Virus record (IMG/VR): IMGVR_UViG_3300028608_000714
Coordinates: 1-21,139 of that record
From: a virus
DNA length: 21,139 nt
Reading direction: 5' to 3' (one strand)
Positions 4,059 to 19,507 of the stretch are shown here, in pieces. The translations under genes and the position numbers were made by a program. Position 1 is the first letter of the stretch. Each line of letters opens with the position of its first letter. The notes under the pieces were generated by a model, which saw nothing but the letters and a program-made list of their open reading frames with translations, had not been told where the DNA came from and made no database searches.

Positions 4059-4079
4059 GAGGCTCTCCTTGGACGGCTG

Positions 4080-4418
4080 TCAGCGGCCGTTGAGGTAGTC
4101 GCGCCACATGGCGCGCAGGATGAGGAAGCAGCCGGTGCCGCAGGTCGCGACGATGGCGACGGCGATGGCGGCCATGGCGAACGCGAGGGCCAGGGCGCAG
4201 GCGATGCACCCGCCGATCGCGGCCAGGGCGCCGATGGTCGCCCACTTGCGGGCGTCGAACGGCTTGGTCTGCTGCTGGTCGTGCTGGCAGGTGTGCGGCT
4301 GCATGGCCTGGCTGATGGCCTGCGCCGTGAGCACGGCCTTCACCAGCTCCAGCTGGCGGGAGTCGTCGGAGGCCTCGGCCACGGCGGCGAGGGCCTTCTG
4401 CAGGGCGTCGTCGCTCAT
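4080..4418 (-). CDS. Spd-like small membrane protein, 112 aa
   Basis: An N-terminal soluble helix (MSDDALQKALAAVAEASDD) is followed by a Cys/His stretch (HTCQH) and then two long hydrophobic segments at about residues 60-82 and 83-105, the second including AIAVAIVATCGTGCFLIL. The protein ends in a short basic tail. The start overlaps the stop of the 58-aa gene by 4 nt (ATGA), so translation is coupled. Small two-helix proteins encoded beside traB in Streptomyces plasmids are the Spd (spread) proteins, which help plasmids move through septa within the recipient mycelium. The assignment rests on topology and operon position, not on recognised homology. Confidence 0.7.
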   Translation of the reverse strand: MSDDALQKALAAVAEASDDSRQLELVKAVLTAQAISQAMQPHTCQHDQQQTKPFDARKWATIGALAAIGGCIACALALAFAMAAIAVAIVATCGTGCFLILRAMWRDYLNGR

Positions 4419-4591
4419 CGCCGCCTCCTGCGGGCCCGGGCGATACGGGTCCGCCGCGATCCGAGGGCCGCCGCGGCGCCGAGACCGAACGCCACGATGA
4501 CCGGCTGCTCGACGAGGACGCCGACCAGGCCGAGCAGGTTGGGGAAAGTCAGCAGGAGGACGACAGCGAGGGCGATCAGGGGCCAGCGCAT
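4415..4591 (-). CDS. 58-aa membrane protein, Spd-like
   Basis: A small gene between the 380-aa and 112-aa genes. ATG 4591 shares one base with the preceding stop (TGATG) and its own stop overlaps the next start (ATGA). The product begins MRWPLIALAVVLLLTF and has two hydrophobic stretches (residues 4-27 and 31-45) and a very basic tail (SRRTRIARARRRRR). A basic tail after a helical hairpin suggests cytoplasmic ends. Tight coupling on both sides argues that it is real. Very short membrane proteins are a regular part of Streptomyces spd operons. Confidence 0.72.
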   Translation of the reverse strand: MRWPLIALAVVLLLTFPNLLGLVGVLVEQPVIVAFGLGAAAALGSRRTRIARARRRRR

Positions 4592-5733
4592 CAGGCGTAG
4601 CCTCCGTTCCCGGGGTCGCGCTTCACGTGCGCATCGGCCTGTTCCTGGGTCCGCTTCGCGGCCCGGTGCAGGGCGGTGCGCACGTAGTTCTCGGTGACGA
4701 CGAGACGGCGGTGCCGGGCGACGTGGTCGACGATCTGCTTGGCCTTGGCGTCCGGACCGAGGACGGATGCGGCCTCGACGACCGCAGCCTCCATCGTGAC
4801 CGGCTCCAGAGCGGTGGCAGGGGCGCTGACCTGCTGATGCGCGGGCGCATCAGCCCGATGCACTTCGTACTCGGTGGGCTGCTGGCCGAGGACCATGGCG
4901 ACGGCGACGGGGTCCACGTGCACCTCGTAGGAGGCGAGGACCGTGGCCAGTTCGGCGGGGTGCGCATCCGGTCGCGCATCAGCCGCGAGGCGGATGGCGT
5001 CGACCGGGTCCATGCTCGCGAAGTGCGACCGGAGTGCCTCCGTGGCGGAGCCGAGTCGGGGCCGCGCGGGCGGCTCGTCGACGGCGGCCGTGACGGGGCC
5101 GGCGTACATCCCGGCGAGGGCCGCATCGGCTCCGCCGGTGATGCGCTCGCGCTGGACGTCGACCAGAGCGGCGCCGAGGATCTGGTCGCCGACACCGACC
5201 TTGCGGGCAAGGTCCCACGACTTCTTCAGGGCCTTCGTCCGGGTCTTCTCCTCGGGGTGCCGCTCTGCGGCGGCCTGGTGGTACGCCAGCTGCTGCACGG
5301 CGTGCGCGTTGCGGCGCTGTGCCTCGGCGTCCACGCCGGTGCTGTAGATGACGATGCGGCGGGCGATCAGGCCGAGGCCCTCGGCGGCGCCGCTCATTCC
5401 GAGCGGCGTGACGGTGTAGACGACGGACTCGGTGACGTTGTCGGCGAGTGCCAGGCCGGTGCCGCAGGCGGCGAGCGGGGCCAGCCACAGGCCGACGCGG
5501 ACCCAGGCCGGCGCGGACTGGCCGAGCAGGGTGAGGCCGACCATGGTCAGCGCGAGGATGAGGGTGAGGCCTTCGCCGGCGGCGACGACGCCGGCGGCGG
5601 TGGCCTTGCGGCCGAACTCGGCGAGCGTGTTGCTGTAGGTGCCGACGGCTCCGGCGATGCCGACGGCGACCATGACGGCGGCTGCGGTGCCGAGGACGCC
5701 ACGCTGCCCCTTGGTGAGGGTGCGGGTGCTCAT
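4591..5733 (-). CDS. Large membrane protein of the transfer operon, 380 aa
   Basis: The N-terminal third has hydrophobic segments at about residues 13-33, 44-68, 76-96 and possibly 100-120. A long charged helical region follows (AQRRNAHAVQQLAYHQAAAE, then KTRTKALKKSWDLARKVG). The C-terminal part is Ala-rich, with a possible helix-turn-helix near residues 325-365 (AKQIVDHVARHRRLVVTENYVRTAL). The layout, with N-terminal membrane helices and a C-terminal DNA-binding-like end, recalls SpdB/DUF2637-type proteins of AICEs and Streptomyces plasmids, whose SpdB2 relatives bind DNA and interact with TraB. Its start overlaps the previous stop by 4 nt (ATGA). Topology is visible; the link to SpdB is an inference. 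Confidence 0.75.
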   Translation of the reverse strand: MSTRTLTKGQRGVLGTAAAVMVAVGIAGAVGTYSNTLAEFGRKATAAGVVAAGEGLTLILALTMVGLTLLGQSAPAWVRVGLWLAPLAACGTGLALADNVTESVVYTVTPLGMSGAAEGLGLIARRIVIYSTGVDAEAQRRNAHAVQQLAYHQAAAERHPEEKTRTKALKKSWDLARKVGVGDQILGAALVDVQRERITGGADAALAGMYAGPVTAAVDEPPARPRLGSATEALRSHFASMDPVDAIRLAADARPDAHPAELATVLASYEVHVDPVAVAMVLGQQPTEYEVHRADAPAHQQVSAPATALEPVTMEAAVVEAASVLGPDAKAKQIVDHVARHRRLVVTENYVRTALHRAAKRTQEQADAHVKRDPGNGGYA

Positions 5734-5948
5734 CGACCCTCACCCCGCTCGGCCTCGATCGAGGCCGCCAGGTTCCGCAGCTGGTGTTCCAGGCGGACCG
5801 CGGCCCGGATGAGCTCGTTGTGGTCGTGGATGTTGGTCGCGGCTGCTTCGGTGAGGAGCACGCGGGTCTGCTCCAGCTCGGCGGTCACGGAGCCGGGGAA
5901 GGCCAGGATGTCGGACGGGTCGCGCAGCGGGGTGTAGGAGGTGCTCAT
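5730..5948 (-). CDS. Hypothetical 72-aa helical protein
   Basis: Second gene of the transfer operon, linked by 4-nt ATGA overlaps to the genes on both sides. The product starts MSTSYTPLRDPSDILAFPG and continues as one amphipathic, Leu/Ala/Glu-rich helix (AELEQTRVLLTEAAAT, then LIRAAVRLEHQLRNLAASIE) that could form a coiled coil. No membrane segment, Cys pair or catalytic motif is visible. Function unknown; the coupling implies a fixed ratio with the 113-aa and 380-aa proteins. Confidence 0.65.
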   Translation of the reverse strand: MSTSYTPLRDPSDILAFPGSVTAELEQTRVLLTEAAATNIHDHNELIRAAVRLEHQLRNLAASIEAERGEGR

Positions 5949-6286
5949 CGGGTCGCCTCCGTCTCGGCGCCGAGGGCGCGGAGCAGGATGCGGAGCGACT
6001 CGGAGAGCGCGCCGTGGGCCTGGGCGTAGCCGAACTCGTCGAAGCCGCTGCTGTCGCCGTAGGCGGCGAGCATCTTCTGCGCGACGCTGACGGCCGCCTC
6101 GAACTCGCTGCGCTGGCGCAGCTGGTCGCGGACGGCGTCGGCCACCGCGCCGGACAGCGGCTGGCGGGGCTGGTTACGCAGGTAAGCGGTGCTGGCGTAG
6201 TCCTCGTCGGCGAGGCGGTGCAGCTCAGCGACACGCTCCCGGTGGGAGGTTGCGGCGCGCTTGGGGCGCGCGAAATGATCGGTCAT
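5945..6286 (-). CDS. Hypothetical 113-aa protein, first gene of the transfer operon
   Basis: ATG 6286 follows AGGAG at 6 nt. The product has a basic N-terminus (MTDHFARPKRAATSHRERV) and is otherwise soluble and helical (VADAVRDQLRQRSEFEAAVSVAQKMLAAYG). No family is recognised. It heads the leftward operon that ends with traB. The 155-bp gap upstream contains a dyad matching the operator between the regulators at 16.6 kb, so this gene is probably the first under that control. It may be a regulator or a structural partner; nothing in the residues decides between these. Confidence 0.68.
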   Translation of the reverse strand: MTDHFARPKRAATSHRERVAELHRLADEDYASTAYLRNQPRQPLSGAVADAVRDQLRQRSEFEAAVSVAQKMLAAYGDSSGFDEFGYAQAHGALSESLRILLRALGAETEATR

Positions 6287-6339
6287 GCCGACTCCTGCTC
6301 TGATCAGGTGTTCGGTGAAGGGCCGGGCGGTGCGCGCGC

Positions 6340-6357
6340 CGGGGGCTGCAACCCCCG
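6340..6357 (-). promoter_or_regulatory. Leader hairpin of the transfer operon
   Basis: CGGGGG and CCCCCG form a 6-bp G/C stem around a 6-nt loop, between the 6401 dyad and the first gene of the transfer operon. If transcription starts near the dyad, this lies in the untranslated leader. It could instead terminate the upstream accessory operon ending at 6442. Confidence 0.35.
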
Positions 6358-6400
6358 AGCTGCTGCCCGGCTCTTCTTGCGTTCCTCAGCGTTCCATAGG

Positions 6401-6417
6401 CTGAACATTTTGTCCAG
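6401..6417. promoter_or_regulatory. Putative repressor operator of the transfer operon
   Basis: CTGAAC-ATTTT-GTCCAG is an imperfect dyad (half sites CTGAAC and CTGGAC). The same dyad with spacer GCTTT is at 16601-16617. On the leftward strand the similarity extends past the dyad (ACTG before it, then GC-x-x-ATG-x-AA after it), as if the two promoters shared a layout. It lies 115 bp ahead of the first gene of the operon. No convincing -35/-10 pair could be fixed. Confidence 0.6.
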
Positions 6418-6441
6418 ACAGTTGACTGCATCGGGTGCGCA

Positions 6442-7056
6442 TCAGGGCGCATCAGCAGGCTGGAAGTGCTTCAGCAGTACGTAGTCCTCGGGCCCATACG
6501 CGGATCCGCACCAGCGGCACTTCAGCTGCGTCTCACCCGGCATCCGGGATATCACCGCCCCGCACACCACGCCTTCACCGACCAGCGCGATGCAGTAGCC
6601 GATCCGCTGCGGCCGCGGCTCCGGGTCGCCGACGATCGAGCGGACGGCACTGTTCAACTCGGCCACCTCACGGGCCAGGTCACCGGCCGCCGGGTACTGC
6701 GCGACGATCCAGCCCAGCTCCTGGGCGAGCCACCGGCAGTCGGCGTCCAGGTGGGCGGGCGGGGTGGCCCCGCGGTGGGGCCAGCGCAGCCGTCGGACGT
6801 CGGCCCGCCACGAGTGGATGACCTCGGTGGCGCGGGCCCAGTTCACGGTGTCGATGACGTCCTCGTTGACGGGGGAGCGGGGGCCGGCGGCGCTCTTGGT
6901 AGCGATGATGTCGCCCCAGCCGGTGCGGCGGGGGACGAGGCAGTCGGCGGCTTCGCGGTAGAGGGCGGGGAGTTCACGCAGGCGCGCGGCCAGCTGCTCC
7001 TGGTGCCGGTGGCACAGGTAGCCGCTGGCCGCGCTGCCGCACAGTTCGCACGTCAC
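6442..7056 (-). CDS. Zinc-ribbon protein, 204 aa, unknown function
   Basis: The N-terminus has a Cys/His cluster, CELCGSAASGYLCHRH, and the C-terminus a second one, CRWCGSAYG, with further cysteines near GYCIALVGEGVVCGA. This suggests two small zinc sites at the ends of a helical middle part. Proteins of this type, beginning MxCxxCGxxxxxxLCxxH, are common unannotated products in Streptomyces phages and AICEs. It is the last gene of the leftward accessory run and its start overlaps the previous stop by 4 nt (ATGA). A DNA- or RNA-binding or regulatory role is possible but not shown. Confidence 0.72.
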   Translation of the reverse strand: MTCELCGSAASGYLCHRHQEQLAARLRELPALYREAADCLVPRRTGWGDIIATKSAAGPRSPVNEDVIDTVNWARATEVIHSWRADVRRLRWPHRGATPPAHLDADCRWLAQELGWIVAQYPAAGDLAREVAELNSAVRSIVGDPEPRPQRIGYCIALVGEGVVCGAVISRMPGETQLKCRWCGSAYGPEDYVLLKHFQPADAP

Positions 7057-7295
7057 TTGGTGCCGTTCTCCTTGGGCTCAGCGAGGGCGGCGCGCAGCTC
7101 GACGGCGGCACCGCCATGGGTGCGGAGGATCGCCCACCTGCGGGCGAGTCGCTCCGCCCGCTCGATGGCGGCCTCGGCGGCTTCGGCCCGCTCCTTCCAC
7201 CGGTCGCCGCGGCGCCAGCCCTCGTTGGCGTTGGCGTACAGCGCGTCCAGGGCGTCGTCGGTGATGGTGCTCGCGGTGTAGCGCTCCGGGCTCAT
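7053..7295 (-). CDS. Short coiled-coil protein, 80 aa
   Basis: ATG 7295 overlaps the previous stop by 4 nt, and the stop overlaps the next start likewise. The product begins MSPERYTASTITDDALDALY and continues as a charged helix (GDRWKERAEAAEAAIERAERLARRW) likely to form a coiled coil. The ITDDALDALY opening followed by an AEAAIER helix is a pattern I recall from many Streptomyces phage and element proteins of unknown function. No catalytic residues are seen. Confidence 0.7.
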   Translation of the reverse strand: MSPERYTASTITDDALDALYANANEGWRRGDRWKERAEAAEAAIERAERLARRWAILRTHGGAAVELRAALAEPKENGTK

Positions 7296-7627
7296 GCGGT
7301 CTGGTCCTTCCTGGTGCAGTGGGCGGTGTCGTGCTCGGTGCCGCAGCTGGTCCACCAGCGTTCGCAGCAGCCGGAGTACAGGTCGGCCCTGGCCTGGCTC
7401 TGCCACATGCCGAGGCGGGCGGCCCGCTCGGCGCGCACGGCGGCCGCGCGCGCCTGGTCGGCGGCGACGTACTCGCGGGCGAGGGCGACCAGCAGGAGCA
7501 GCGAGGTGGCGAAGAGGCCGATGCCGTACCACCAGCCGTCTGCGCGGGCGCTGGTGGCGGCGCAGTGGCCCAGGAACAGGACGGCCAGGCCGTAGCCCAG
7601 GCAGAGCGCACGGGTGGAGGGGTTCAC
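7292..7627 (-). CDS. Membrane protein with Cys-rich tail, 111 aa
   Basis: A GTG start at 7627 overlaps the DUF4326 stop (GTGA). Two hydrophobic segments, about residues 7-25 (ALCLGYGLAVLFLGHCAAT) and 33-51 (WWYGIGLFATSLLLLVALA), form a helical hairpin. A charged helix follows, then a tail with CC, C and C-x-x-H-like residues (SGCCERWWTSCG, then TAHCTRK) that may bind zinc or form disulfides. It sits inside a chain of overlapping genes. Unknown function; an inner-membrane accessory or exclusion protein is one possibility. Confidence 0.65.
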   Translation of the reverse strand: MNPSTRALCLGYGLAVLFLGHCAATSARADGWWYGIGLFATSLLLLVALAREYVAADQARAAAVRAERAARLGMWQSQARADLYSGCCERWWTSCGTEHDTAHCTRKDQTA

Positions 7628-8058
7628 GACTGCGCTCCGTTCGCCAGCTCCAGCAGGACGTCGGCGTGGCACGCCCGGTTGATCGGGCACCAGCACATGA
7701 GGTCCCGGCCCGCCAGCTGTTCCCGGACGGCGGCCACGATCTCGGGCCGCTGCCCCAGCCACTGGCGGTACAGCTCGATGACCTGCTCGGGGGTGGCGTC
7801 CTGCACGAGGTGCCACGTGATGGACTTGTCGGGGTGGACGAAGGCGTGCTGCTGGCCGGAGGTCTTGCCGAGGCGGCCCTCGTGCTGCCACTCGCTGCCG
7901 TCGATGCCGGGGATGCGGACCTGCGTCTGCCCGAGCGGGTACGGGTTGCCCCATCGGCTGCCGCGGCCGACGTAGATGGCGCGGTCGGGGGCGCGCCATC
8001 CCTTGGCGCGGCGGCGCTGGATGCGGACAGGCTGACCGAGGGCGATCTGTCGGGCCAT
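7624..8058 (-). CDS. DUF4326 domain protein, 144 aa
   Basis: The sequence matches what I know of DUF4326: IYVGRGSRWGNPYPLG near the N-terminus, a central variable part, and LMCWCPINRACHADVLLELAN at the C-terminus with a Cys/His set that could be metal-binding or catalytic. These proteins occur in phages and mobile elements; their biochemical function is not settled as far as I know. ATG 8058 lies 3 nt after the stop of the MazG-like gene, so the two are cotranscribed and may act in the same nucleotide-related process. Confidence 0.82.
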   Translation of the reverse strand: MARQIALGQPVRIQRRRAKGWRAPDRAIYVGRGSRWGNPYPLGQTQVRIPGIDGSEWQHEGRLGKTSGQQHAFVHPDKSITWHLVQDATPEQVIELYRQWLGQRPEIVAAVREQLAGRDLMCWCPINRACHADVLLELANGAQS

Positions 8059-8061
8059 GGG

Positions 8062-8622
8062 TCAGGCCTCCTTGGTGGCCTGGCGGCGGTCGATGGCCTC
8101 GACCCATGCGACGGCGACCGCAGCCACCTGCACCAGCTCGGCGCGCAGCTTCCCCGGGTCGGACTCGGCGAGCGCCTCGTGCACTTCCTCCAGCAGGACG
8201 TCCCGCCAGGCGAGGACGCCGGCCGCAGCGGCGCGGTCGGCGTGGTCGCGGTAGCGGCGCGCGCTGTGCTGGTAGACCGGGAGGCCGGTTCCGTCGGGGT
8301 GGTTCTGCTCGCCGAACTTGGAGTCCTGGCGGGTCCGCTCGTAGCCGACCTCGACGAGGACCTGGGGGGTTGCGTTGGTCCGGTGGTCCGAGCAGTAGTC
8401 CCCGGAGTAGTCGCACTGCCAGCCCTGTGTGCGCAGGTGAGCGCGGGCGACCTCCAGCCGCTCTGTGCTGGTCTGCTCGGTGGACACCATGAACTCGCCG
8501 GTGAACTCGGTGCCGCAGTCGTCGCAGAAGACGGTGATGCGAGACGGGTAGAGCGGACTGTCCGGGTCGCGCAGGATCGCCGATACGGTCTCGGGCGTCA
8601 GGCTGGTGGGCTGGTTCTCCAT
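8062..8622 (-). CDS. MazG-like NTP pyrophosphohydrolase-family protein, 186 aa
   Basis: The C-terminal half has the hallmarks of an actinobacterial MazG-like family: RQDSKFGEQNHPDGTG, then AGVLAWRDVLLEEVHEALAESDP (an E-E-x-x-E-A metal-binding pattern) and LRAELVQVAAVAVAWVEAIDRR. The N-terminal half adds a zinc-ribbon-like part with CDDCG and later Cys/His residues. Relatives hydrolyse nucleoside triphosphates to monophosphate and pyrophosphate. In phages and elements they may change nucleotide or ppGpp pools. ATG 8622 follows GGAGGA, in a 28-nt leader almost duplicated in front of the methyltransferase gene. Activity is inferred from motifs. Confidence 0.8.
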   Translation of the reverse strand: MENQPTSLTPETVSAILRDPDSPLYPSRITVFCDDCGTEFTGEFMVSTEQTSTERLEVARAHLRTQGWQCDYSGDYCSDHRTNATPQVLVEVGYERTRQDSKFGEQNHPDGTGLPVYQHSARRYRDHADRAAAAGVLAWRDVLLEEVHEALAESDPGKLRAELVQVAAVAVAWVEAIDRRQATKEA

Positions 8623-8679
8623 GGGTTCCTCCGTGGTGGGATGGGTGGGAGGCCGCCCCGCGCTCCCTGCGGGGCGGCC
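8623..8679 (-). promoter_or_regulatory. Hairpin-plus-leader module, copy A
   Basis: A perfect hairpin GGCCGCCCCGC-7 nt-GCGGGGCGGCC (8651-8679) follows the HNH-like gene, then a 28-nt leader (8623-8650) ends at the ATG of the MazG-like gene. Copy B, at 10482-10538, has the same 11-7-11 hairpin geometry with an unrelated stem sequence, and a leader identical at about 22 of 28 positions. The hairpin probably terminates the upstream transcript; the leader carries the ribosome-binding site GGAGGA. Confidence 0.7.
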
Positions 8680-8686
8680 GACTCGG

Positions 8687-9007
8687 TCAGAACAGGGACA
8701 GGGGCTCTTCGGCGTGCCGCTCCAGCTCCCGCTGGGCGGCCAGCTGCCGGTTCCGGGCCTTCGCGTGGCAGCTGGCGCACCAGGCGCGCAGCTCCTCGAC
8801 GGGCACGGCCGCCGCGGCGACGGTGGACAGGGTCAGGTCGGCGGGGGCGATCAGCAGTCGGCCGTGGGCGCTGGTGTTGATGCAGCGCAGGCCGGTGTCG
8901 GAGTGCTGCGAGCCGCACAGGCCGCCCGTGCACTGGCACTTGTGGCCGGCGGGCTCCATGACGGCCTGCCAGATGGCGGTGGCCCCGAGGGGCGGACGCT
9001 TGCTCAT
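8687..9007 (-). CDS. HNH-like zinc protein, 106 aa
   Basis: The protein has paired cysteines (GHKCQCTGGLCG), then LRCINTSAHGRLLIAPAD, and an ending LRAWCASCHAKARNRQ, the form of an HNH C-terminal knuckle. The classical DH catalytic pair is not obvious; the only nearby residues are the His in SAHG and the Asp in APAD. It may be a diverged HNH nuclease or a related zinc protein. ATG 9007 is 1 nt after the methyltransferase stop with GGAGG upstream, so the two are coupled. A restriction or nicking partner of the methyltransferase is possible but not demonstrated. Confidence 0.65.
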   Translation of the reverse strand: MSKRPPLGATAIWQAVMEPAGHKCQCTGGLCGSQHSDTGLRCINTSAHGRLLIAPADLTLSTVAAAAVPVEELRAWCASCHAKARNRQLAAQRELERHAEEPLSLF

Positions 9008-9008
9008 G

Positions 9009-10481
9009 TCACAGCACCTCCGCCACGCGGCGGCCCAGCCACTGGGCGACGTTGCACGAGACCGCGTTCCCGGCCTGCATGGTCTGCTCGCCCTTGTTGC
9101 CGAGGACGATGTAGTCGTCCGGGAAGCGCTGCGCCAGGAGCTGCTCACGCGGCTGGATCATCCGGTAGTGGCAGTCCTCCAGCGCGGGCGCCGGCGAGGC
9201 AATGCCCGCGGAGTCGACCGTGCCCAGCGTGTGCAGGGGCTCGCCGGTCGTCTTCGTGGCCGCGTTGCGGTACGGGATGACCAGCCAGTGGTGCCGTCCC
9301 TGCCCGGTGACGGTGTCGACCGGCTCGGTGACGGGGCGGGCGCTGCTGTTGCGGCGCAGGGTGACGATGAACGAGTCGTCGGCCTGCGGCGGCGTCACCA
9401 GGGCCTCGAAGCCCTTCGGGTTCGCCATGCGGGTGCGCATCGGCTCGGCCGTCGTCGTGCAGGTGGTGTTCCACGTGCCGCCCGACGGGACCAGGACGGC
9501 GTCGCCGATCTTCGCGGTGCGCGCCGCCAGCGGCGCCGAGTCCGCCGGGTACGCCCTGCCGTCGTGCCCGCCGTGGTTGACGGTCAGGACCATGCGCCGG
9601 TCGCCGAGCAGGCCGAGGCCCTTCCGGATCCGCGTCACGGTGTTCGCCGCGAGGGGCCGCAGTCCGTGCGCGGGCCGGTCGCCGATGCGCACCCCCAGGT
9701 TCGACCAGTCGATGATCGAGGCGGCTGGGCGGACGTAGGGCTCGACGACCGCGTGGCGGCAGCGCGGCCCGTTCGGGCACCGGTACACGTACTGCTGGCC
9801 GTACTTCCCGAGCCGCCGGCCCTCCTTCTTCCAGGACTGGAAGGCGGTGACGGTCTCCTCGCACACCGGGCACCAGGCCCGCGGGCGGGGCTGCACGTCG
9901 GGCAGCGGGATGCCCTCGCGGGTGCAGACGATGTAGATCCGGTCCCGCCACTGCGGCGCCGGGCTGTTGCCGTCCTCGTCCCCGGCGTGCGCGCTCGACA
10001 GGGAGACGAACTGGATGTTGTAGCCGAGGGTGCGCATCCCGGCGAGCCAGACGTCGAACAGCTCCCAGTCCGCGGCCTCCATGACGTTCTCCACCAGGAC
10101 GGCCCGGTAGCGGTGGACCTCGGTGGCGCGGATGACGTCCCAGAAGGTGGCCCGGGTGCGCTCGAACGCGGCGCTGGCGACGGGCCCGAACTCCTCGATG
10201 CCCATCTGTCCGGGCCCGGCGGCGGTGCGGCGGCGGCGTCCGCCGGCGGGGCTCAGCTCGGTGCAGATCGGGGAGGCCCAGAGGATGTCCGTCCTGGGCA
10301 GGCGCCGCATGTCGTAGTTGTTGACGTCGGCGCACAGGTGGTCGGCGTCGGTGTGGTTCGCGGCGTGGGTCTCGATGGCGCGCTGCCAGTGGTTCGCGGC
10401 CAGCTTGAGTTCCAGGCCGGCGGCGACGAGGCCGGTGGACGATCCGCCGGCGCCGCAGAAGATGTCGGTGAAGGTGAGCAT
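9009..10481 (-). CDS. C5-cytosine DNA methyltransferase
   Basis: This 490-aa protein shows the C5-methyltransferase motifs in order: motif I DIFCGAGGSS (residues 6-15), catalytic motif IV SPICTELSPAGG with Cys73, motif VI ENV (131-133), motif VIII QWRDR (177-181), and motif X AGNAVSCN near the C-terminus. The usual PC dipeptide is replaced by P-I-C. Between motifs VIII and IX there is an inserted zinc-ribbon, CPVC (204-207) and CPNGPRC (235-241), likely part of target recognition. It should transfer methyl groups from S-adenosylmethionine to cytosine C5. On mobile elements such enzymes usually protect against host restriction. ATG 10481 follows GGAGGA. The target sequence cannot be read from the protein. 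Confidence 0.93.
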   Translation of the reverse strand: MLTFTDIFCGAGGSSTGLVAAGLELKLAANHWQRAIETHAANHTDADHLCADVNNYDMRRLPRTDILWASPICTELSPAGGRRRRTAAGPGQMGIEEFGPVASAAFERTRATFWDVIRATEVHRYRAVLVENVMEAADWELFDVWLAGMRTLGYNIQFVSLSSAHAGDEDGNSPAPQWRDRIYIVCTREGIPLPDVQPRPRAWCPVCEETVTAFQSWKKEGRRLGKYGQQYVYRCPNGPRCRHAVVEPYVRPAASIIDWSNLGVRIGDRPAHGLRPLAANTVTRIRKGLGLLGDRRMVLTVNHGGHDGRAYPADSAPLAARTAKIGDAVLVPSGGTWNTTCTTTAEPMRTRMANPKGFEALVTPPQADDSFIVTLRRNSSARPVTEPVDTVTGQGRHHWLVIPYRNAATKTTGEPLHTLGTVDSAGIASPAPALEDCHYRMIQPREQLLAQRFPDDYIVLGNKGEQTMQAGNAVSCNVAQWLGRRVAEVL

Positions 10482-10538
10482 GTGGTCCTCCGTGATGTGA
10501 TGGGTGGAGGTCCGGGCCTGTTAGCGGCAGGCCCGGAC
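10482..10538 (-). promoter_or_regulatory. Hairpin-plus-leader module, copy B
   Basis: A perfect hairpin GTCCGGGCCTG-7 nt-CAGGCCCGGAC (10510-10538) begins 2 nt after the helicase stop and is followed by a 28-nt leader (10482-10509) that ends at the methyltransferase ATG. Geometry and leader match copy A at 8623-8679. The hairpin is the likely terminator of the helicase transcript. Confidence 0.7.
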
Positions 10539-10540
10539 TG

Positions 10541-12157
10541 CTACGCGGCGGGAAGGATGAGCTGGCCGAGGACGCGGCCGACGCGGTCCTGGTCGATCAG
10601 GTCGGCGACGTCGCCGGCGGACGCCCCACGCGGCACAGAGAGGCCCAAGCGGCGGCAGAGGCCCAGCTGCTTCGCGCTCGGCGTCCCGGACCTCCAGCGG
10701 GCCTGCCGCGCGACGAACGCGTGCGGGGCGAGGACCTTGGCCTGCTGCTCCAGCCACGCCAGTGCCTCCGGCAGCGGACGGGCGATGTCGTCCTTCGGCG
10801 GGTGCACGCCGTGCGCCTCCGTCCAGCGGCGCATCCGGTACAGCCGGGTGCCGGGGTCGCGCTGGAGGAAGAGGAACATGGCGCTGTTCAGGCGGATGAA
10901 CCAGGTGCCGTCCGCGGTGCGCAGCCAGCGGATGGCGCTGCTGCCGAAGAGGTTGAACTCCTCGGCCTCCACGTGGGCGACCAGCGTGCGCCGCTTCTCG
11001 GCGGCCTCCGCCCGCTCGGCAACCTCCCGCAGGCTCTTGCCCTCCTCGGCCTCCCCGACCTCCCGCGCCGTCAGGTCGACCATCGACGCGAGCTTGTGCT
11101 TGGTGGAGGCGCCCATGACGTCCAGCAGCAGCGCGTCCTGCTTCCCGGGCGCCAGGCGGAGACCGCGGCCCACCATCTGCACGTACAGGCCGGGGCTCTT
11201 GGTGGGCCGGGCGACGACGACGCACGACGTGTGTGGCGCGTCGAACCCCTCGGTCAACACCATGCAATTGGTGAGCACCTGGACCTCTCCGGCCGTGTAG
11301 CGGGCGAGCGTCGCACGCCGTTCGTCGCGGCCCATGTCGCCCCACACCGGGGCCGCCGTGATGCCGGCCGCCGTGAGCGCGGCGGCGGCGGCCTGCGCGG
11401 TCGCCACGGTCGGGGTGAAGACGACGCCCGCCCGGTCGCTCGCGTGGTCGACGTAGGCCTTCGCGATGGCGTCCAAGGCGCCCGAGTCCTCCAGGGCCTG
11501 GCCCAGCTGCCCGTCGACCAGGTCCCCGTTCCGGGTCTTCACCTTGTCCAGGTCCAGGGTGTCCACGGTGATGCGCTTGCCGCGGACGTCGCACAGGTAG
11601 CCGTCGCCGATCATGTCGAGGATGTCCAAGCGGTAGACGACGTCCTCCCACACCTCGGCCAGGCCGCCGTCGGTGCGCGTCATGGTCGCGGTGAAGCCGG
11701 CCACGGGCGTTCCGTTCCAGGCGCCGAAGTGGGCGAGGACCTCCATGTAGGTGCGGGCGGCCGCGTGGTGGCACTCGTCGACGATGACCAGGCCGATGTC
11801 GCGGATGGCCTCGCGCCGCTTGGCTACGGCCAAGGTCTGGACGCTGGCCACGATCACGTCGGCGTCGGCGTGGTCGTCGCGCTGGGCCTTGACGATGCCG
11901 ACCCGCAGCATCGGGTCGACGGCGAGCAGCTTGGAAGCGGCCTGCTCGATCAGCTCCTCCCGGTGGGCGATCACCAGGACGCGGCGGCCGCCGAGGCTGT
12001 CGAGCATCTGGTGGGCCAGGTGGGAGAACACCACGGTTTTCCCGGCGCCGGTCGGCAGGACGACGGCCAGGCGGTTGGTGCCGGCGGCCCACCCGGCGCG
12101 TAGCGCCTCGATGGCGTCGAGCTGGTAGGGCCTGGGCTTGAAGGCGGTAATGGTCAT
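10541..12157 (-). CDS. Superfamily II DEAD/DEAH-box-type helicase
   Basis: The 538-aa product has RPYQLDAI (Q-motif-like), Walker A LPTGAGKT (Lys40), motif Ia VIAHREEL, DECH (127-130), TAT (156-158), a C-terminal RecA lobe with VLTEGFDAPHT, and motif VI QMVGRGLRLAPGK (327-339). This is the RecG/UvrB/type I restriction R-like helicase arrangement. After about residue 345 there is a non-helicase extension of about 190 aa. ATG 12157 follows GAGGTG; a longer frame upstream would run into the iteron region and is rejected. It lies just downstream of the putative origin and the Prim-Pol gene, so a role in unwinding or restarting replication of the element is likely. Confidence 0.9.
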   Translation of the reverse strand: MTITAFKPRPYQLDAIEALRAGWAAGTNRLAVVLPTGAGKTVVFSHLAHQMLDSLGGRRVLVIAHREELIEQAASKLLAVDPMLRVGIVKAQRDDHADADVIVASVQTLAVAKRREAIRDIGLVIVDECHHAAARTYMEVLAHFGAWNGTPVAGFTATMTRTDGGLAEVWEDVVYRLDILDMIGDGYLCDVRGKRITVDTLDLDKVKTRNGDLVDGQLGQALEDSGALDAIAKAYVDHASDRAGVVFTPTVATAQAAAAALTAAGITAAPVWGDMGRDERRATLARYTAGEVQVLTNCMVLTEGFDAPHTSCVVVARPTKSPGLYVQMVGRGLRLAPGKQDALLLDVMGASTKHKLASMVDLTAREVGEAEEGKSLREVAERAEAAEKRRTLVAHVEAEEFNLFGSSAIRWLRTADGTWFIRLNSAMFLFLQRDPGTRLYRMRRWTEAHGVHPPKDDIARPLPEALAWLEQQAKVLAPHAFVARQARWRSGTPSAKQLGLCRRLGLSVPRGASAGDVADLIDQDRVGRVLGQLILPAA

Positions 12158-12185
12158 GTTCACCTCGGTTCGGTTGCTGGGGCTT

Positions 12186-12505
12186 TGCGGGGAGTGCGGG
12201 GAGTGCGGGGACTCGGTGCGGGGACTTCCGCCCGTCTTCCGAGCCGGTCTGATCAGCGGTTTTGCGGGGATGCGGGGACTTGCGGGGACTTGGGAAATCC
12301 CTTGATGACGGAGAGCTGCAGAACTGATCCGTGATGACGTGCGGCACATGTGTTGTGCGATGCATGTGCGACGTGCGCGCTATAGGGGAGGCGGAGGCAG
12401 GTCCCCGCAGGTCCCCGCATCCCCGCATCGGTGCAGGTGGGACCGGATGCGGGGAGTGCTTCGACTCCCCGCACAGGTCCCCGCGGAGTCCCCGCAGTCC
12501 CCGCA
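12186..12505. repeat. Iteron field, putative replication origin
   Basis: The 8-mer TGCGGGGA occurs at 12186, 12195, 12204, 12217, 12263, 12271, 12281 and 12448. Its complement TCCCCGCA occurs at 12402, 12412, 12420, 12466, 12489 and 12498, with a one-mismatch copy at 12478. The left arm reads one way and the right arm mostly the other, around a less GC-rich centre (12289-12401) that contains GGGAAATCCC and two GATGACG copies. It fills the 358-bp gap between the Prim-Pol stop and the helicase start and holds no gene. Iterons bound by an initiator are the standard reading. Operator repeats for the helicase promoter are the alternative. Confidence 0.7.
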
Positions 12506-12515
12506 AGTCCCCCGG

Positions 12516-15170
12516 TCACGACTCGTGCCGTCCGGTGCCGCGGTCCTTGTGGACGTCGACGCGCCAGAAGTTCTGCTTCTTGTGGCTGTCGACGACCATG
12601 ACGACCTTGTGGTCACCGAAGTAGCGGCCTGCGCGCGCCTTCAGCCAGATGCCCAGCTGGTTGGCGCTCGGCGGCTCGTTGCCCTTCCGCGGCACGTGGT
12701 TGGGCAGGCCCTGGATGAGCGCCCCCGTAGAGAGGGGCTCAGTGCCGTAGGTCTCCCGCCACATCTCCAGGAAGAGGGACCACTCCTGCAGTTCGTCGTC
12801 CTGGTCGCGGGCCTCGGTGCGGTCGGCCATCCAGCCTTCGACGCCGAGGAAGTCGAGCAGGCCGGCCATGAGGCTGGCCCACTCGCTGTAGTCGCCTTTG
12901 CGGACGCGGACCTGGGGCGTCCCCGCGGCGACCCAGGCCCGGACGAGCGTGACGAGCGCGGCGACCAGGGTGGAGGCGTTCTTGCGAAGCCACGGCCGGA
13001 GGTCGCCGATGGTGAAGTTGTCGCGCTGGTCGGGGTCGGGGCAGTCGGGGTCCAGGCGGACCCAGAGGACGCGGCGGCCGTTGTCCCCGCCGGTGCGGAG
13101 CGCGTTGCCGGTGACGATCCACAGCCGGTCGTTCGGCATGCTGACCTTCGACGTAGCGCCGAGCACGCGGTCTCCCCACACCTCGTTGGTCAGGAGCGCG
13201 GACAGGACCGGGCTCTTGATGACGGAGCCGTTGGGGAGGTTGTCGAGGACGACGACGGGCTGCCCGGTGCCGTACAGCTGCGTAGTGATGCTCTTCCGCA
13301 GCTCGGTGTCGTTCTCGGGCCAAGCGGTGTCGGCGATGCCGTAGGCGTGCCGGAAGATGTCTTTCAGCAGGCTCTTGCCGGATCCGGCCGCAGTCGCGGT
13401 GATCACGAACATGGGCGTCGGCCCGTGGAAGTACGGGCGCAGGATCGGCGTGAGCAGGGCGCCGAGGTAGTGCGCGCGGTCGCTGGCCGCGACCCAGGGG
13501 AAGTCCTTCAGGACCTGGTCGAGGACGATGCCCTTGGCCCTGTCGAGGCTGTCGCGGGTCACCTGCGGGGCGAGGCGGCGCAGCGGCACCCTCGGCTCGA
13601 GGTACAGGCCCGTCGTCCGGTCGTAGCCGAGGGAGTCGAGCAGTGTGCCGTCGGGTCGGATCACGGGCGACGTGACGATGCCGCGCAGGATGGGCAGGGG
13701 CCAGGACTTGCGGCCGAGGATCGTGGAGCAGCTCTTGGGCATGAGCAGCTCGCGTTCTTCCTCCAGCTGCTCGGTGAGCGGGTTGCGCTTCACGGTGAAG
13801 CTGGAGACGTGGTCGGCGAGGTAGGCCCGCAGGTTGTCGGTGCCGAGCTGCTGGACGATCGGGTCGTCGTTGTCGTCGCGGTAGACCCAGCAGGGGCCGC
13901 CGGACCGGGTGTACAGGTCGGGCAGGCGGCCGTCCTTCATGAGCTGGAGTACTCCGTCGATGGCGTCGGCCTCGTTGGTGATGTCCAGGTCGGGGCGGGA
14001 GGAGACGGACCGCAGCTGCGGGCCGCCCTCGAACTGCTCCTGGGCGTCGGGGGCGTGGTCCGGGTCCAGCGCGGACGAGCCGTCGGCGAAGTGCTGCGCG
14101 GGCACGGACGAAAGCCGCCGGCGGGGCGGCTCGGTGCCGTACCCGTTGCGGCGCAGCTCGGCCGCCGCGGCCTTGAAGTTCCCGCGGTGTTCGAGCAGCG
14201 TGTACGCGCCGAACTTGGAGTACGGCACGTCAGCCTGGAACTCCGAACCGGTGGCGAACACCCACAGCCGGTCTTTCTCCGGGTCACGGCCGGTGGTGGC
14301 CTTGATGCCTCCGACGCCGTCCGCCCACCCCCAGTAAGTGGTGTGACCGCGCGTGATGATGGGCCGGAAGTTCCCGCGAAGGATGTCCGCCCAGTCCGCG
14401 CGGGCCTCGAAGTCCTCGCCAGGGCGCAGGCCGCCGCCGGGCAGCGGCTCCTGCGGCTTGGGCGCGGTCTTCGGCGCCTCGGGCACGGGCATCTGGTCGA
14501 CCATCCGGCAGATGTCCCGGATGGCGTCCATGGTGTCGCCGTCGATGACAGGGATGCCGGCGGGCGACCCGGCGACGCGGACGTATGGCCGACCGGAGGC
14601 GTGCACCGGGCCGCTGGACGGCTCGACCAGGCCGTATCCGCCCTCGCCGCGCGTTTCGATCAGAGGCCGTACGATCTTCGTGTTCGGCTTCTCGGCGATA
14701 CGCTGACGCTCGGAGGCGTCCCACTCGTCTTCCCGGGCCAGCCGCTGAGCCAGCTTCCGGTTCGGGGGGACGGCGGCGCCATCGAGGCGGATGCGGTAGT
14801 GCCGGCCGCCGGAGGGCGACTCCGTCACCCAGCCGTTCAGGATCGCGTGCCATGCCTCGCTGACGCGGGGGCCGGACGCCTCCATGATCTCGGTGACCTC
14901 GTCCAACAGGCCTTCGCGGATAGCGAGGCCCTCGAACTCGATCAGCTCGACGGCACCGGACACCGCGCCGTAGACGACGGCGATGCCGCGGGGCCGGTCG
15001 CCGCCGAACCACGTGTCGTGATCGGCGGGAGTGGTCCGGTCCACCTTGTACTGCAGCCAGGACACGGCCGGCTTCTTGCTGCCGTCGGCCTTGATGGGGA
15101 GGACGCACAGGCCAGCGTCGTGCAGCTCGCGGGCGGCGGCCCGGAGGTCGGTGGGCTGTGAGTCGGTCAA
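12516..15170 (-). CDS. Bifunctional primase-polymerase (Prim-Pol) with D5-like helicase domain
   Basis: The TTG start at 15170 has GGGAG upstream and overlaps the previous stop (TTGA), giving 884 aa. Residues 10-130 resemble Prim-Pol: LCVLPIKADGSKKPAVSW, GIAVVYGAVSGAVELIEFEG with an E-F-E (78-80) where D-x-D is usual, and SPSGGRHYR (119-126) with His124. A central region follows. The C-terminal half is an SF3/D5-like ATPase: TATAAGSGKS (Lys599), VVVLDNLPNG (Asp643), and TGNAL with RR further on as sensor and arginine finger. Prim-Pol proteins of AICEs and phages prime and may extend DNA at the element's origin; the iteron field begins directly downstream. No separate replicase gene is in the window, so host polymerase is presumably used. 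Confidence 0.9.
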   Translation of the reverse strand: MTDSQPTDLRAAARELHDAGLCVLPIKADGSKKPAVSWLQYKVDRTTPADHDTWFGGDRPRGIAVVYGAVSGAVELIEFEGLAIREGLLDEVTEIMEASGPRVSEAWHAILNGWVTESPSGGRHYRIRLDGAAVPPNRKLAQRLAREDEWDASERQRIAEKPNTKIVRPLIETRGEGGYGLVEPSSGPVHASGRPYVRVAGSPAGIPVIDGDTMDAIRDICRMVDQMPVPEAPKTAPKPQEPLPGGGLRPGEDFEARADWADILRGNFRPIITRGHTTYWGWADGVGGIKATTGRDPEKDRLWVFATGSEFQADVPYSKFGAYTLLEHRGNFKAAAAELRRNGYGTEPPRRRLSSVPAQHFADGSSALDPDHAPDAQEQFEGGPQLRSVSSRPDLDITNEADAIDGVLQLMKDGRLPDLYTRSGGPCWVYRDDNDDPIVQQLGTDNLRAYLADHVSSFTVKRNPLTEQLEEERELLMPKSCSTILGRKSWPLPILRGIVTSPVIRPDGTLLDSLGYDRTTGLYLEPRVPLRRLAPQVTRDSLDRAKGIVLDQVLKDFPWVAASDRAHYLGALLTPILRPYFHGPTPMFVITATAAGSGKSLLKDIFRHAYGIADTAWPENDTELRKSITTQLYGTGQPVVVLDNLPNGSVIKSPVLSALLTNEVWGDRVLGATSKVSMPNDRLWIVTGNALRTGGDNGRRVLWVRLDPDCPDPDQRDNFTIGDLRPWLRKNASTLVAALVTLVRAWVAAGTPQVRVRKGDYSEWASLMAGLLDFLGVEGWMADRTEARDQDDELQEWSLFLEMWRETYGTEPLSTGALIQGLPNHVPRKGNEPPSANQLGIWLKARAGRYFGDHKVVMVVDSHKKQNFWRVDVHKDRGTGRHES

Positions 15171-15445
15171 CGGGTGCTCCCGTGGTACTTGGAAAGGTGG
15201 TACGCCTTGATGCCGTCGACGAAGGCGGCGACTCCGCCGGGCCCGCGCGGTGCGGGATTCCCGTCCTCGCCCTTCACGCGGTCGCTCGCGCAGACCGGGC
15301 CTTCCAGGCGGTGCGGGCAGCCGGGGCGCAGGCACTCGTACCTGGCTCGCTGCCCGTCCAGGTCGACGAACAGGGCGCCCTCGAAGGGCTCCGGGGCGGC
15401 CGCGCGGGCCCGGGACACCCCGGGCCGCGCGGCGGTGGCGGTCAA
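15167..15445 (-). CDS. Small zinc-finger-like protein, 92 aa
   Basis: A TTG start at 15445 overlaps the previous stop (TTGA), and the stop overlaps the Prim-Pol start in the same way, so all three genes are translationally coupled. The C-terminal two-thirds contains ECLRPGCPHRLEGPVC and ends DGIKAYHLSKYHGSTR, a possible Cys/His zinc site. The first 20 residues are Ala/Arg/Pro-rich and may lie outside the folded part; a GTG ten codons in is an alternative start. As the immediate partner of the primase gene it may be a replication accessory factor or DNA-binding protein. Family not recognised. Confidence 0.65.
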   Translation of the reverse strand: MTATAARPGVSRARAAAPEPFEGALFVDLDGQRARYECLRPGCPHRLEGPVCASDRVKGEDGNPAPRGPGGVAAFVDGIKAYHLSKYHGSTR

Positions 15446-15918
15446 CTGCCCGCCTTGTCGGCGACGCGGGCGGCCCAGTCCTCGACCGCCTCGACGTACC
15501 CGGACGCGACGGAGGCCTGGAAGCTGGCGGCCAGCTGCTCTTCCTCCTCCAGCTCGGCGATCGCGGCGCGCAGCTGCTTGAGGACGACGCGAGGGCTCAG
15601 CGCTCGGGGCACGATGGCGAGCCCGCCGGTGGCGGTCCAGATGACGTGCAGCTCGGTGGGCTGGTCGACGGCGCGGGTGGTGTGCAGCGTCAGGCCGTGG
15701 GCGCTGCTGAGGGCCCGGATCTCCTCGCGGGCCAGCGCGTCGATGACGCGTCCGAAGACGGCGTCGGGGTCGCCGTGCTGGACGATCAGTTCGGCGACGA
15801 GGTCAAGGAACTCGGCGACGGCCGGTTCCGCGTCCTGCTTCGCGGTCTCGATGTCGGTGAGGGCGCGCATCACGGTCGCGCTGGGCGACGGTGTGCGGGT
15901 CGTGGGAAGCTCAGGCAT
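15442..15918 (-). CDS. Hypothetical 158-aa protein
   Basis: ATG 15918 lies 15 bp after the Xis-like gene. The product is acidic and helical (DIETAKQDAEPAVAEFLDLV; later KQLRAAIAELEEEEQLAASF, likely a coiled coil), with a central stretch TELHVIWTATGGLAIVPRAL that looks like beta strands. There are no Cys pairs, membrane segments or catalytic motifs. It is cotranscribed with the regulators and the Prim-Pol gene. Function unknown. Confidence 0.65.
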   Translation of the reverse strand: MPELPTTRTPSPSATVMRALTDIETAKQDAEPAVAEFLDLVAELIVQHGDPDAVFGRVIDALAREEIRALSSAHGLTLHTTRAVDQPTELHVIWTATGGLAIVPRALSPRVVLKQLRAAIAELEEEEQLAASFQASVASGYVEAVEDWAARVADKAGS

Positions 15919-15933
15919 GAGCGGACCCCGTCT

Positions 15934-16248
15934 CTACTTGCTGGTGGGTGCGGGCTGCTCGGTAGATGGCGCCCCCGGCTGGACCCCGGGGGCGTCGTCG
16001 TTGGTGGCCGCTGCCGACTGGACCTCGGCGGCGACGAACTGGGAGAGGCCCATGTAGGCCAGGAGTTCCGTCTTGCGGACGCGGAAGGCGCGGCCGAAGC
16101 GGATGACCTCGACGGGGAACTCGCCCTTGTCGATGAGGTCGTAGCCGAGGGTCTCGCCGATGTTGAGGGCGGAGAACGCCTCGCGCGCCGAGGGCATCGC
16201 GGGCAGCGCCACGACCTGTGCGAGCGTCATGGGGGCGGCGGTCGTCAT
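15934..16248 (-). CDS. Excisionase-like DNA-binding protein, 104 aa
   Basis: The core MPSAREAFSALNIGETLGYDLI, then KGEFPVEVIRFGRAFRVRKTELLAYMG, is the winged helix typical of AICE and phage Xis proteins: a helix-turn-helix with a GYxLI turn, then the V-IR-GR-x-x-RV wing. The C-terminal 30 residues are low-complexity. ATG 16248 overlaps the preceding stop (ATGA). Xis bends DNA at the att site and steers the integrase to excision. Here the gene is not beside int but inside the leftward replication operon, so excision would be tied to replication. A transcriptional regulator of the same fold is the alternative. Confidence 0.75.
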   Translation of the reverse strand: MTTAAPMTLAQVVALPAMPSAREAFSALNIGETLGYDLIDKGEFPVEVIRFGRAFRVRKTELLAYMGLSQFVAAEVQSAAATNDDAPGVQPGAPSTEQPAPTSK

Positions 16249-16538
16249 ATGACCACCTGCTGTGCGGGCTGTGCGGGGATGAGGGTCCGGCCGGCGCGCT
16301 CCATCGGTATCCACAGCACCAGCAGGTCGACGCCGAGCCGCGCCGCGATCTTCCGGGCCTTGTGCTCGGGGACGACGCGCTGCGCGCCGGTCATGAGGTT
16401 GCCGATCGTGCCGTGGGCGACGCCGGCGGCCTCGGCGAGTTCGCGGCTGGTGACGGCGTCACCGGTGCCGGTGCGCTCCATGAGGAGCTTGAGTCGGTCG
16501 CCGCTGACGACCGCGTACAGGCTGGGGGTTTCGCTCAC
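16245..16538 (-). CDS. XRE (Cro/CI-like) regulator, 97 aa
   Basis: A helix-turn-helix is visible at about residues 28-55, TSRELAEAAGVAHGTIGNLMTG, followed by EHKARKIAARLGVDLLVLW, the usual end of an XRE domain. The GTG start at 16538 follows GAGGTGA at a proper distance; ATG 16565, nine codons upstream, has no ribosome-binding site. It is the first gene of the leftward Xis/Prim-Pol operon and is transcribed away from the XRE gene at 16808. That arrangement matches a Cro/CI-type switch; activators that start replication in this position (Pra in pSAM2) are a known parallel. Whether it activates or represses cannot be told. Confidence 0.8.
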   Translation of the reverse strand: MSETPSLYAVVSGDRLKLLMERTGTGDAVTSRELAEAAGVAHGTIGNLMTGAQRVVPEHKARKIAARLGVDLLVLWIPMERAGRTLIPAQPAQQVVI

Positions 16539-16600
16539 TTTCACCTCGCGTGACGTTTCTTTCATCGCGCTGAACGGCGATGGGATGAGCTTTGCATGAG

Positions 16601-16617
16601 CTGAACGCTTTGTCCAG
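16601..16617. promoter_or_regulatory. Putative operator, leftward (replication) promoter side
   Basis: CTGAAC-GCTTT-GTCCAG repeats the dyad at 6401-6417 with a different spacer. It lies in the 269-bp gap between the divergent regulator genes, 63 bp ahead of the leftward start at 16538, and probably controls the Xis/Prim-Pol operon. Confidence 0.6.
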
Positions 16618-16691
16618 CAGTCTGAAAGTTCGAAGCGTGCGGCGGTAATCAGTCAATGACTCAGAGCGACCTGGCGTGATCACTCCACTTG

Positions 16692-16708
16692 CTGAACAAT
16701 TCGTGCAG
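16692..16708. promoter_or_regulatory. Putative operator, rightward (repressor) side
   Basis: CTGAAC-AATTC-GTGCAG keeps one perfect half-site and a weaker second one. It is 115 bp ahead of the rightward start at 16808. A possible -35, TTGACC, is at 16730-16735, but no good -10 is seen. The position suits autoregulation by the repressor. Confidence 0.42.
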
Positions 16709-16807
16709 TGAGTGGAATGAACGGTGCTGTTGACCTGCTCGTATATCCCAGCGGGCTACTCAGACCTTGAACACCTTTTGACTACCTCTGACCACAGGAG
16801 TGGCAGG

Positions 16808-17239
16808 ATGACCCCCATGACCCCCACAGGCATGTCTCATGACGACGCAGCTCAGGAGCCTGAACGGCGCCAGTTCGCAGACTTGGTCCGCCGGCGCCGC
16901 GCAGAGCTGAATGAAGGCCTGGATGCTTTCGCCGCGAAGGCGGTGGATCCGGTCTCCGGGGCCCGGGTGAAGCGGGGGTGGATCTACCGCCTGGAGACAG
17001 GGGAACCGGTCACTCCACCTGTTTTTGAAGAGTTGCGCGCCTTGGCGGCGGCGTGTGAACTCCCGGTGGAGGCGTTGCAGGACGCGGCGGGCAGTCAGTT
17101 CCACGGCGTGGACCCTGTGGTCTCCGGGTCGTCTGAAGCCCGCGCGTATGTACGGAAGTTGGACCAACTTCCGGCGGCTCAGAGAGACCAGTTGCTGAGA
17201 CTGATCGACACGCTAACCCCACCCTCTTCCCGGGACTGA
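16808..17239 (+). CDS. XRE-family repressor-like regulator, 143 aa
   Basis: ATG 16808 follows AGGAGTGGCAGG; an in-frame upstream extension to 16724 has no such site. The N-terminal domain (about residues 20-92) looks like a lambda repressor-type domain: RQFADLVRRRRAELNEGLDAFAAKAV, then RGWIYRLETGEPVTPP, then FEELRALAAACELPVEAL. The C-terminal part ends in a helix (ARAYVRKLDQLPAAQRDQLL) that could mediate dimerisation. It is transcribed away from the replication operon, with three candidate dyads in or linked to the gap, and it ends in a hairpin. It is the best candidate for the master repressor keeping the element integrated and silent. Confidence 0.78.
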   Translation: MTPMTPTGMSHDDAAQEPERRQFADLVRRRRAELNEGLDAFAAKAVDPVSGARVKRGWIYRLETGEPVTPPVFEELRALAAACELPVEALQDAAGSQFHGVDPVVSGSSEARAYVRKLDQLPAAQRDQLLRLIDTLTPPSSRD

Positions 17240-17241
17240 GC

Positions 17242-17261
17242 GATGCATTCCCCTATGCATC
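17242..17261. repeat. 7-bp inverted repeat after the repressor gene
   Basis: GATGCAT and ATGCATC face each other across 6 nt, starting 3 bp past the repressor stop. It could be the first of two terminator stems or a binding site. Confidence 0.4.
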
Positions 17262-17266
17262 ACACC

Positions 17267-17305
17267 GGGTGACAGGCGCGAACCGCCTGTAGACGCCTGT
17301 TACCC
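17267..17305 (+). terminator. Terminator of the repressor gene
   Basis: GGGTGACAGGCG (17267-17278) pairs with CGCCTGTTACCC (17294-17305), giving 11 Watson-Crick pairs and one G-U pair around a 15-nt loop. It separates the repressor gene from the integrase region. Confidence 0.55.
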
Positions 17306-17318
17306 GTGGTGCGATCAT

Positions 17319-17615
17319 GTGCCAACACCTTTGGCAGGAAGGGTGCTGGTCCAATGCGAAAATCGAACACGTGATCGGTTGGGGGCGGTGGCATTGCAGC
17401 AACAGCACGGCCGGGTTTGGTTTTTCTTCAGCGACGACGTACCCCCTGATGGGGACCTGATGATCCCCATCGTGAACGAGCACGGTCTGGCCATCGCTGT
17501 GAGACCGAATGCGGGGTTGGAACAGGCGATGCTCGACGATCTGAACAGGGTCGCCGACCATGTAGTGGGGGTCGGTCTCGCGCACCTGAATGTGAGTGCG
17601 CTCTTGGCCTCCTGA
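17319..17615 (+). CDS. Hypothetical 98-aa protein upstream of int
   Basis: The frame opens at a GTG at 17319 and ends 16 bp before the integrase start. The product contains RVWFFFSDDVPPDGDLMIPIV and VNEHGLAIAVRPNAGLEQAML, which read like a small alpha/beta fold. The ribosome-binding site is weak (a GGTG tract), so the start is uncertain. The codon pattern is somewhat less GC-biased than in neighbouring genes, and no homologue comes to mind. Its position could mean cotranscription with int. Confidence 0.5.
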   Translation: MPTPLAGRVLVQCENRTRDRLGAVALQQQHGRVWFFFSDDVPPDGDLMIPIVNEHGLAIAVRPNAGLEQAMLDDLNRVADHVVGVGLAHLNVSALLAS

Positions 17616-17631
17616 GCGAGAGGAGCGAGCC

Positions 17632-19287: not shown

Positions 19288-19303
19288 AATCGTGGGACGG
19301 GCA

Positions 19304-19335
19304 AAGGGCCTCTGACCTGCGGGTCGGGGGCCCTT
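19304..19335 (+). terminator. Terminator of int
   Basis: AAGGGCC (19304-19310) pairs with GGCCCTT (19329-19335), with an inner GACC/GGTC stem. It begins 16 bp past the int stop. Confidence 0.6.
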
Positions 19336-19490: not shown

Positions 19491-19507
19491 GCCATGAGGG
19501 CTCATCA

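Follow-up and report, generated by a model that had tools for sequence, protein, structure and literature searches.

The window, that is, the whole stretch of 21,139 nucleotides of viral DNA that was analysed, carries a pair of divergent regulator genes in its right-hand part. The rightward one (16808-17239, plus strand) encodes an XRE/HTH_31 protein of 143 aa, which is proposed to be the lysogeny repressor, and the gene is followed by a tyrosine integrase gene (17596-19287, plus) and by an att core (19510-19549, plus) that coincides with the 3' part of a tRNA-Lys(TTT) gene. The leftward one (16245-16538, minus), which has a GTG start and a conserved ribosome-binding site, GAGGTGAA, encodes a 97-aa XRE protein and is the first gene of operon 1, which also contains a 105-aa HTH_17 protein that is excisionase-like with a score below the cutoff (15934-16251, minus), a Prim-Pol replication protein (12516-15335, minus) and a DEAD/ResIII helicase (10541-12349, minus). 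Around the Prim-Pol/helicase boundary, at 12186-12512, lie several arrays of 9-10 bp repeats of the TTGCGGGGAC type, possibly the iterons of an origin of replication. Further left, a conserved 204-aa protein (6442-7056, minus) is encoded by the last gene ahead of the distal operator described below.

Operon 2 begins with the gene of a 113-aa protein (5945-6286, minus) and includes a 380-aa protein that is conserved in relatives (phrog_16651; 4591-5733, minus), the plasmid-transfer DNA translocase TraB (1506-3536, minus), an 81-aa MerR/excisionase-like HTH protein (1201-1446, minus) and an HNH endonuclease (713-1204, minus), which in relatives is followed by terminase, portal and capsid genes. 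This is the "transfer operon" of the original prediction, and the name is apt insofar as the translocase can be classified as a genuine plasmid TraB: it matches the equivalog model NF041214 with 929 bits, against a cutoff of 800, and is 61-65% identical over its full length to TraB of Streptomyces plasmids. No match to it was found in the annotated phage collection searched. With GACCCGGA as the query, which we take to be the 8-bp TraB recognition (clt/TRS) repeat and which may differ from the repeat of this TraB, no clustered recognition repeats were found in the window. The 11 copies present in 846-17130, where about 2 are expected, are scattered and all on the minus (coding) strand, and their excess is probably a coding bias (Asp-Pro-Glu/Asp).

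A temperate phage at tRNA-Lys

Actinomycete integrative and conjugative elements (AICEs) are defined by a gene list that comprises a Prim-Pol/replication module, an integrase and an FtsK-type Tra protein (PMC3218068). The window contains a tyrosine integrase, Prim-Pol and TraB from this list, as well as a tRNA site, and has no structural gene within its 21 kb, all of which fits the conjugative element that had originally been proposed. However, beyond the integrase, the contig L001, which is 99.2% identical to positions 6245-20770 of the window, carries genes for an endolysin (5e-68), a holin and minor tail proteins. In about 34 relative contigs, the HNH gene, at which the window ends, is followed by terminase and portal genes, and the control region has relatives in prophages as well as in a phage-plasmid that carry terminase, portal, protease and capsid genes. 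An intact tRNA-Lys gene is found at the end of the prophage G004 (L036:570). Because of these lysis and tail genes, the HNH-terminase-portal synteny, the phage-type relatives and the att site at tRNA-Lys, the element is identified as a temperate Streptomyces phage that integrates at tRNA-Lys, and the window probably stops just before its packaging genes. The assignment as an AICE was rejected once the phage genes had been found on the nearly identical contig and by synteny, and an AICE that has borrowed phage regulation is a very improbable description of it.

A rare dyad overlapping two predicted leftward promoters

A motif scan of the 21-kb window finds exact matches to CTGAAC-N5-GTCCAG at 6401-6417 and 16601-16617, and a copy with one mismatch, CTGAACAATTCGTGCAG, at 16692-16708, in agreement with the original prediction, which had named these three sites. 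Two of them lie between the divergent regulator genes. Operator copy 1 (16601-16617, CTGAACGCTTTGTCCAG) overlaps the -35 element of the predicted promoter of the 97-aa gene, and operator copy 2 (16692-16708, CTGAACAATCCGTTCAG in relatives) is placed 91 bp from it, on the side of the 143-aa gene; in 33 loci the two proximal copies are spaced 85-93 bp apart. The distal operator (6401-6417, CTGAACATTTTGTCCAG) is found between the 204-aa and 113-aa genes.

The resemblance of these palindromes is real and goes beyond chance, the latter being an explanation of practically negligible probability that is ruled out by an out-of-sample matrix, by rarity in genomes and by the fixed position of the sites in relatives. 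A position weight matrix (PWM) was derived from relatives only, using 32 intergenic dyads and leaving out the window and the contigs L001 and L002, and its top three sites in the window are those at 6401, 16601 and 16692 (27.1, 25.3 and 25.0 bits, respectively). The next-best site scores 12.0 bits, and the best score among 100 Markov-simulated windows is 16.05 bits. The motif is also not as common at unrelated positions: a Streptomyces genome of 8-10 Mb contains CTGRACN5GTYCAG 3-4 times, as against twice in the 21 kb of the window, and the composite of operator and promoter is present in 4 of 394 Streptomyces genomes. Relative records contain 2-3 dyad sites each, similar to the three near-palindromic sites of the window, and in whole records the exact dyad is nearly confined to the intergenic pair and a single place 8-10 kb downstream. 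A loose scan that allows three mismatches returns 43 sites in the window, where 21 are expected, most of them in coding sequence.

Read leftward, both strong copies of the dyad fit the pattern TGGACA-N17-AA(A/C)GCT. The predicted promoter of operon 1 (16588-16616, minus) consists of the -35 hexamer TGGACA (16616-16611), a 17-nt spacer and the -10 hexamer AAAGCT (16593-16588), preceded by TG. That of operon 2 (6388-6416, minus) has the same arrangement, with TGGACA at 6416-6411, a 17-nt spacer and AACGCT at 6393-6388, also preceded by TG. The minus-strand composites read CTGGACAAAGCGTTCAGCTCATGCAAAGCT ahead of the 97-aa gene and CTGGACAAAATGTTCAGCCTATGGAACGCT ahead of the 113-aa gene. The flanks of the first two dyads, which had originally been noted as similar, are therefore a repeated promoter-operator unit, and one half of the dyad reads CTGGAC instead of CTGAAC because it doubles as the -35 element.

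The arrangement is well conserved. An alignment of 17 relatives shows four invariant parts: ACA in the -35 element, the half GTTCA, TG ahead of the -10 element and, within the latter, G..CT. The form TGGACA-N17-AATGCT is kept ahead of the 97-aa regulator gene in about 42 distinct loci, a count of which one part was gathered with a pattern that requires the promoter arrangement and another part, the loci L003-L034, was found by protein. The promoter of operon 2 is conserved in L005, L006, L007 and L015. A scan with the sigma-70 consensus did not list the promoter, since TGGACA/AACGCT departs too much from the E. coli consensus used, and no confident position could be assigned to the promoter of the 143-aa gene. 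Directly ahead of the ribosome-binding site of the 97-aa gene, at 16545-16580, there is an additional half-palindrome, GTTCA-N6-TGAA, the counterpart of which in L009, L012 and L014 is a TGGGACAN4TGTCCAG-like dyad. It may act as a third operator of lower strength or form a hairpin in the leader.

Candidate binders of the dyad

The reading we favour, with fair confidence, is that the dyad is the operator of the lysogeny repressor and that the divergently encoded 143-aa XRE protein occludes both leftward promoters. It builds on the conservation and rarity of the site, the constancy of its position, its overlap with a likewise conserved promoter-like sequence and the phage context; use of the promoters, the 143-aa protein as the binder and repression by binding are what we infer. 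Under this model, two operators 91 bp apart would sit between the 143-aa gene, which is transcribed rightward in the direction of the integrase, and the leftward operon 1, which would be the first lytic operon with the 97-aa regulator, the excisionase-like 105-aa protein, Prim-Pol, the helicase and others. A third operator, 10 kb away, would head the leftward operon 2, leading from the 113-aa gene to TraB, the 81-aa excisionase-like protein and HNH, and by synteny the packaging genes would join this operon. In both leftward promoters, the -35 hexamer would be the dyad's left half, its sequence TGGACA being intermediate between CTGAAC and TTGACA, and a bound repressor dimer would therefore exclude RNA polymerase from both. 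If the repressor were lost, the TraB/packaging operon would be switched on at the same time as excision and replication.

One repressor thus probably silences replication, excision and DNA transfer at once. The original prediction had a single repressor coordinating these three processes from sites 10 kb apart. A conserved operator-like dyad common to the XRE switch and the TraB operon bears out the shared site, which is not universal among relatives, being found in 5 of 46 lineages, and the coordination agrees with the gene order, from which alone it is read: the excisionase-like gene and Prim-Pol lie in operon 1, and TraB lies in operon 2. The regulon had been called lysogeny-like; lysogeny is the right term, and the element being a phage, it is a phage lysogeny regulon proper.

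As to the identity of the binder, the 143-aa protein is likely the lysogeny repressor and a better candidate than the 97-aa protein, as the recognition helices suggest. At one position, the helix of the 143-aa protein has G in loci with GTTCAG operator halves and A or S in those with GTCCAT halves, and the helix of the 97-aa protein (GT[IV]G) is nearly constant between the two groups. This switch of operator and helix is one event on the tree, so that it provides a lead on the identity of the repressor, not a proof, and leaves that identity weakly tested. The 143-aa protein matches HTH and repressor families only, with no recognised S24 (RecA-type) peptidase or oligomerisation domain, which counts against the model. 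Its AlphaFold model consists of an HTH and short helices. For both regulators, fold searches return only generic XRE folds, and the AlphaFold models, which are of moderate confidence, show the same.

The 97-aa protein could instead be the main binder, acting as an autorepressor of operon 1 that also lowers operon 2 in lytic growth, with a Cro-like timing. Its gene stands directly behind the proximal promoter, its HTH is SinR/434-Cro-like in the fold search, and it is conserved to the same degree as the 143-aa protein. Considering that its helix hardly differs between the two operator groups, while that of the 143-aa protein does, if in one event, this assignment is regarded as rather unlikely. 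With the 143-aa protein as the repressor, the 97-aa protein may still be a Cro-like partner that acts on the same sites. The annotated phage collection searched contains no match to the 97-aa protein, and a scan of genome contigs with the single protein gave none either; the alignment used as the query retrieved 10 Streptomyces loci in genome contigs.

Control of operon 2 and its TraB slot

Of the 46 distinct loci that contain the 204-aa gene, five lineages have the distal operator 27-30 bp past this gene, namely the window with L001 as one lineage, L005, L006, L007 and L015, where it scores 23.9-30 bits, as against at most 8.3 bits in the other 41. A scan of 2.9 million IMG/VR viral contigs for the composite yielded 45 sites, about 32 of which lie ahead of the 97-aa gene, 4 at the distal position, 130-140 bp before the first gene of operon 2, and about 9 at unrelated places. 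The absence of the distal copy from the 41 lineages speaks against the 143-aa repressor model, as does the fact that read-through from operon 1 could also feed operon 2. Such read-through is central to another explanation, in which the distal dyad is mainly a roadblock, like the "stoperator" of phage L5, and not the operator of a promoter. The dyad does lie on the same strand as operon 1, about 27 bp beyond its last gene. However, it comes with a full -35/-10 match of the proximal type, which is conserved in the five lineages, and there are just three sites, each a near-symmetric palindrome, unlike in L5 (PMC6550527). A roadblock is therefore judged improbable, and a promoter operator bound by the repressor is preferred.

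In the inspected lineages without the distal copy, a small HTH gene or other sequence takes its place. The small HTH gene is found between the 204-aa and 113-aa genes, before a similar leader, in L003, L012, L013, L014, L027, L115 and L117, and the shared distal site is therefore one of at least two controls of operon 2. In L003, L013 and L014, a palindrome like CCTAGAACNCTAGGG precedes the small HTH gene and is perhaps the operator of its own product. The leader of operon 2 contains a strong two-stem hairpin (6322-6371, minus; z = -4.5), perhaps with a role in translation control or antitermination, with two compensatory pairs in 9 sequences, which is kept in relatives even where the small HTH gene replaces the promoter. 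It has no Rfam match, and a scan of viral contigs with the hairpin pattern returned mostly noise, plus additional operon 2 leaders.

The TraB slot lies between a 112-aa gene and the excisionase-like gene. In most relatives, it is occupied by a different FtsK/SpoIIIE-like translocase (e.g., L223:4692-6797 and L247:10126-12222), and a related TraB is found on L047 and L048, contigs that also carry tail or terminase genes. A broader interpretation, which we consider less likely than not, is that of a family of temperate Streptomyces phages that has conjugation-type TraB/FtsK-like dsDNA translocases as a standard module, which is here gated directly by the repressor, with the shared operator and a local HTH regulator as interchangeable controls of operon 2.

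In the CI/Cro system of the lambda type, paired operators are located at divergent promoters, and a second operator region controls another early operon. The present locus resembles it in its divergent HTH regulators, in operator-like sites that overlap predicted promoters and in the one repressor proposed for two separated lytic operons. It differs in having single 17-bp dyads instead of the tripartite operators of lambda, two lytic operons that run in the same direction 10 kb apart, a 143-aa protein in which no S24 peptidase domain was recognised, and a second operon that holds TraB and leads to packaging. The c repressor of the actinophage phiC31 has conserved inverted repeats of about 17 bp, which are intergenic and located at promoters across the genome. 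This is the nearest precedent known to us, likened by its general description as a Streptomyces phage with inverted repeats of this length at promoters; the present window has only three such sites.

L5 and Bxb1 are actinobacterial phages in which one repressor acts and operator-like sites lie far from its gene, as they do here (PMC6550527; PMC9283540). The L5-type systems have 20-30 asymmetric sites, mostly away from promoters, and a monomeric repressor (PMC6550527; PMC9283540), whereas the window has three near-palindromes, two of them at predicted promoters. Control of the transfer of a Streptomyces mobile element by a repressor is also exerted by KorSA of pSAM2 and by KorA-KorB of pIJ101 (PMC3218068; PMC4170104). 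KorSA is a GntR-type repressor (PMC3218068), whereas both switch regulators of the present element are XRE/HTH_31 proteins and belong to a phage.

The kind of regulon is already known, and what is unusual is a plasmid TraB within a phage immunity regulon, together with a replaceable control of operon 2. If the broader interpretation given above is true, induction would open two routes of spread, by virions and by TraB-driven transfer through the mycelium. A plasmid-transfer gene under probable phage immunity control forms a bridge between phages and the conjugative elements of Streptomyces. In addition, the analysis provides a precise set of operators for a family of phages in which the 97-aa regulator and TraB lack a match in the annotated phage collection searched, and the five lineages with the shared operator, next to the many without it, offer a ready comparison for the gain and loss of operators in phage regulons.

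To the right of the att core, at 19844-21139, the window contains a third XRE gene and a GntR-like gene (the latter at 20711-21088), and at the matching place of L001, ahead of the lysis cassette, there is a different GntR-like gene.
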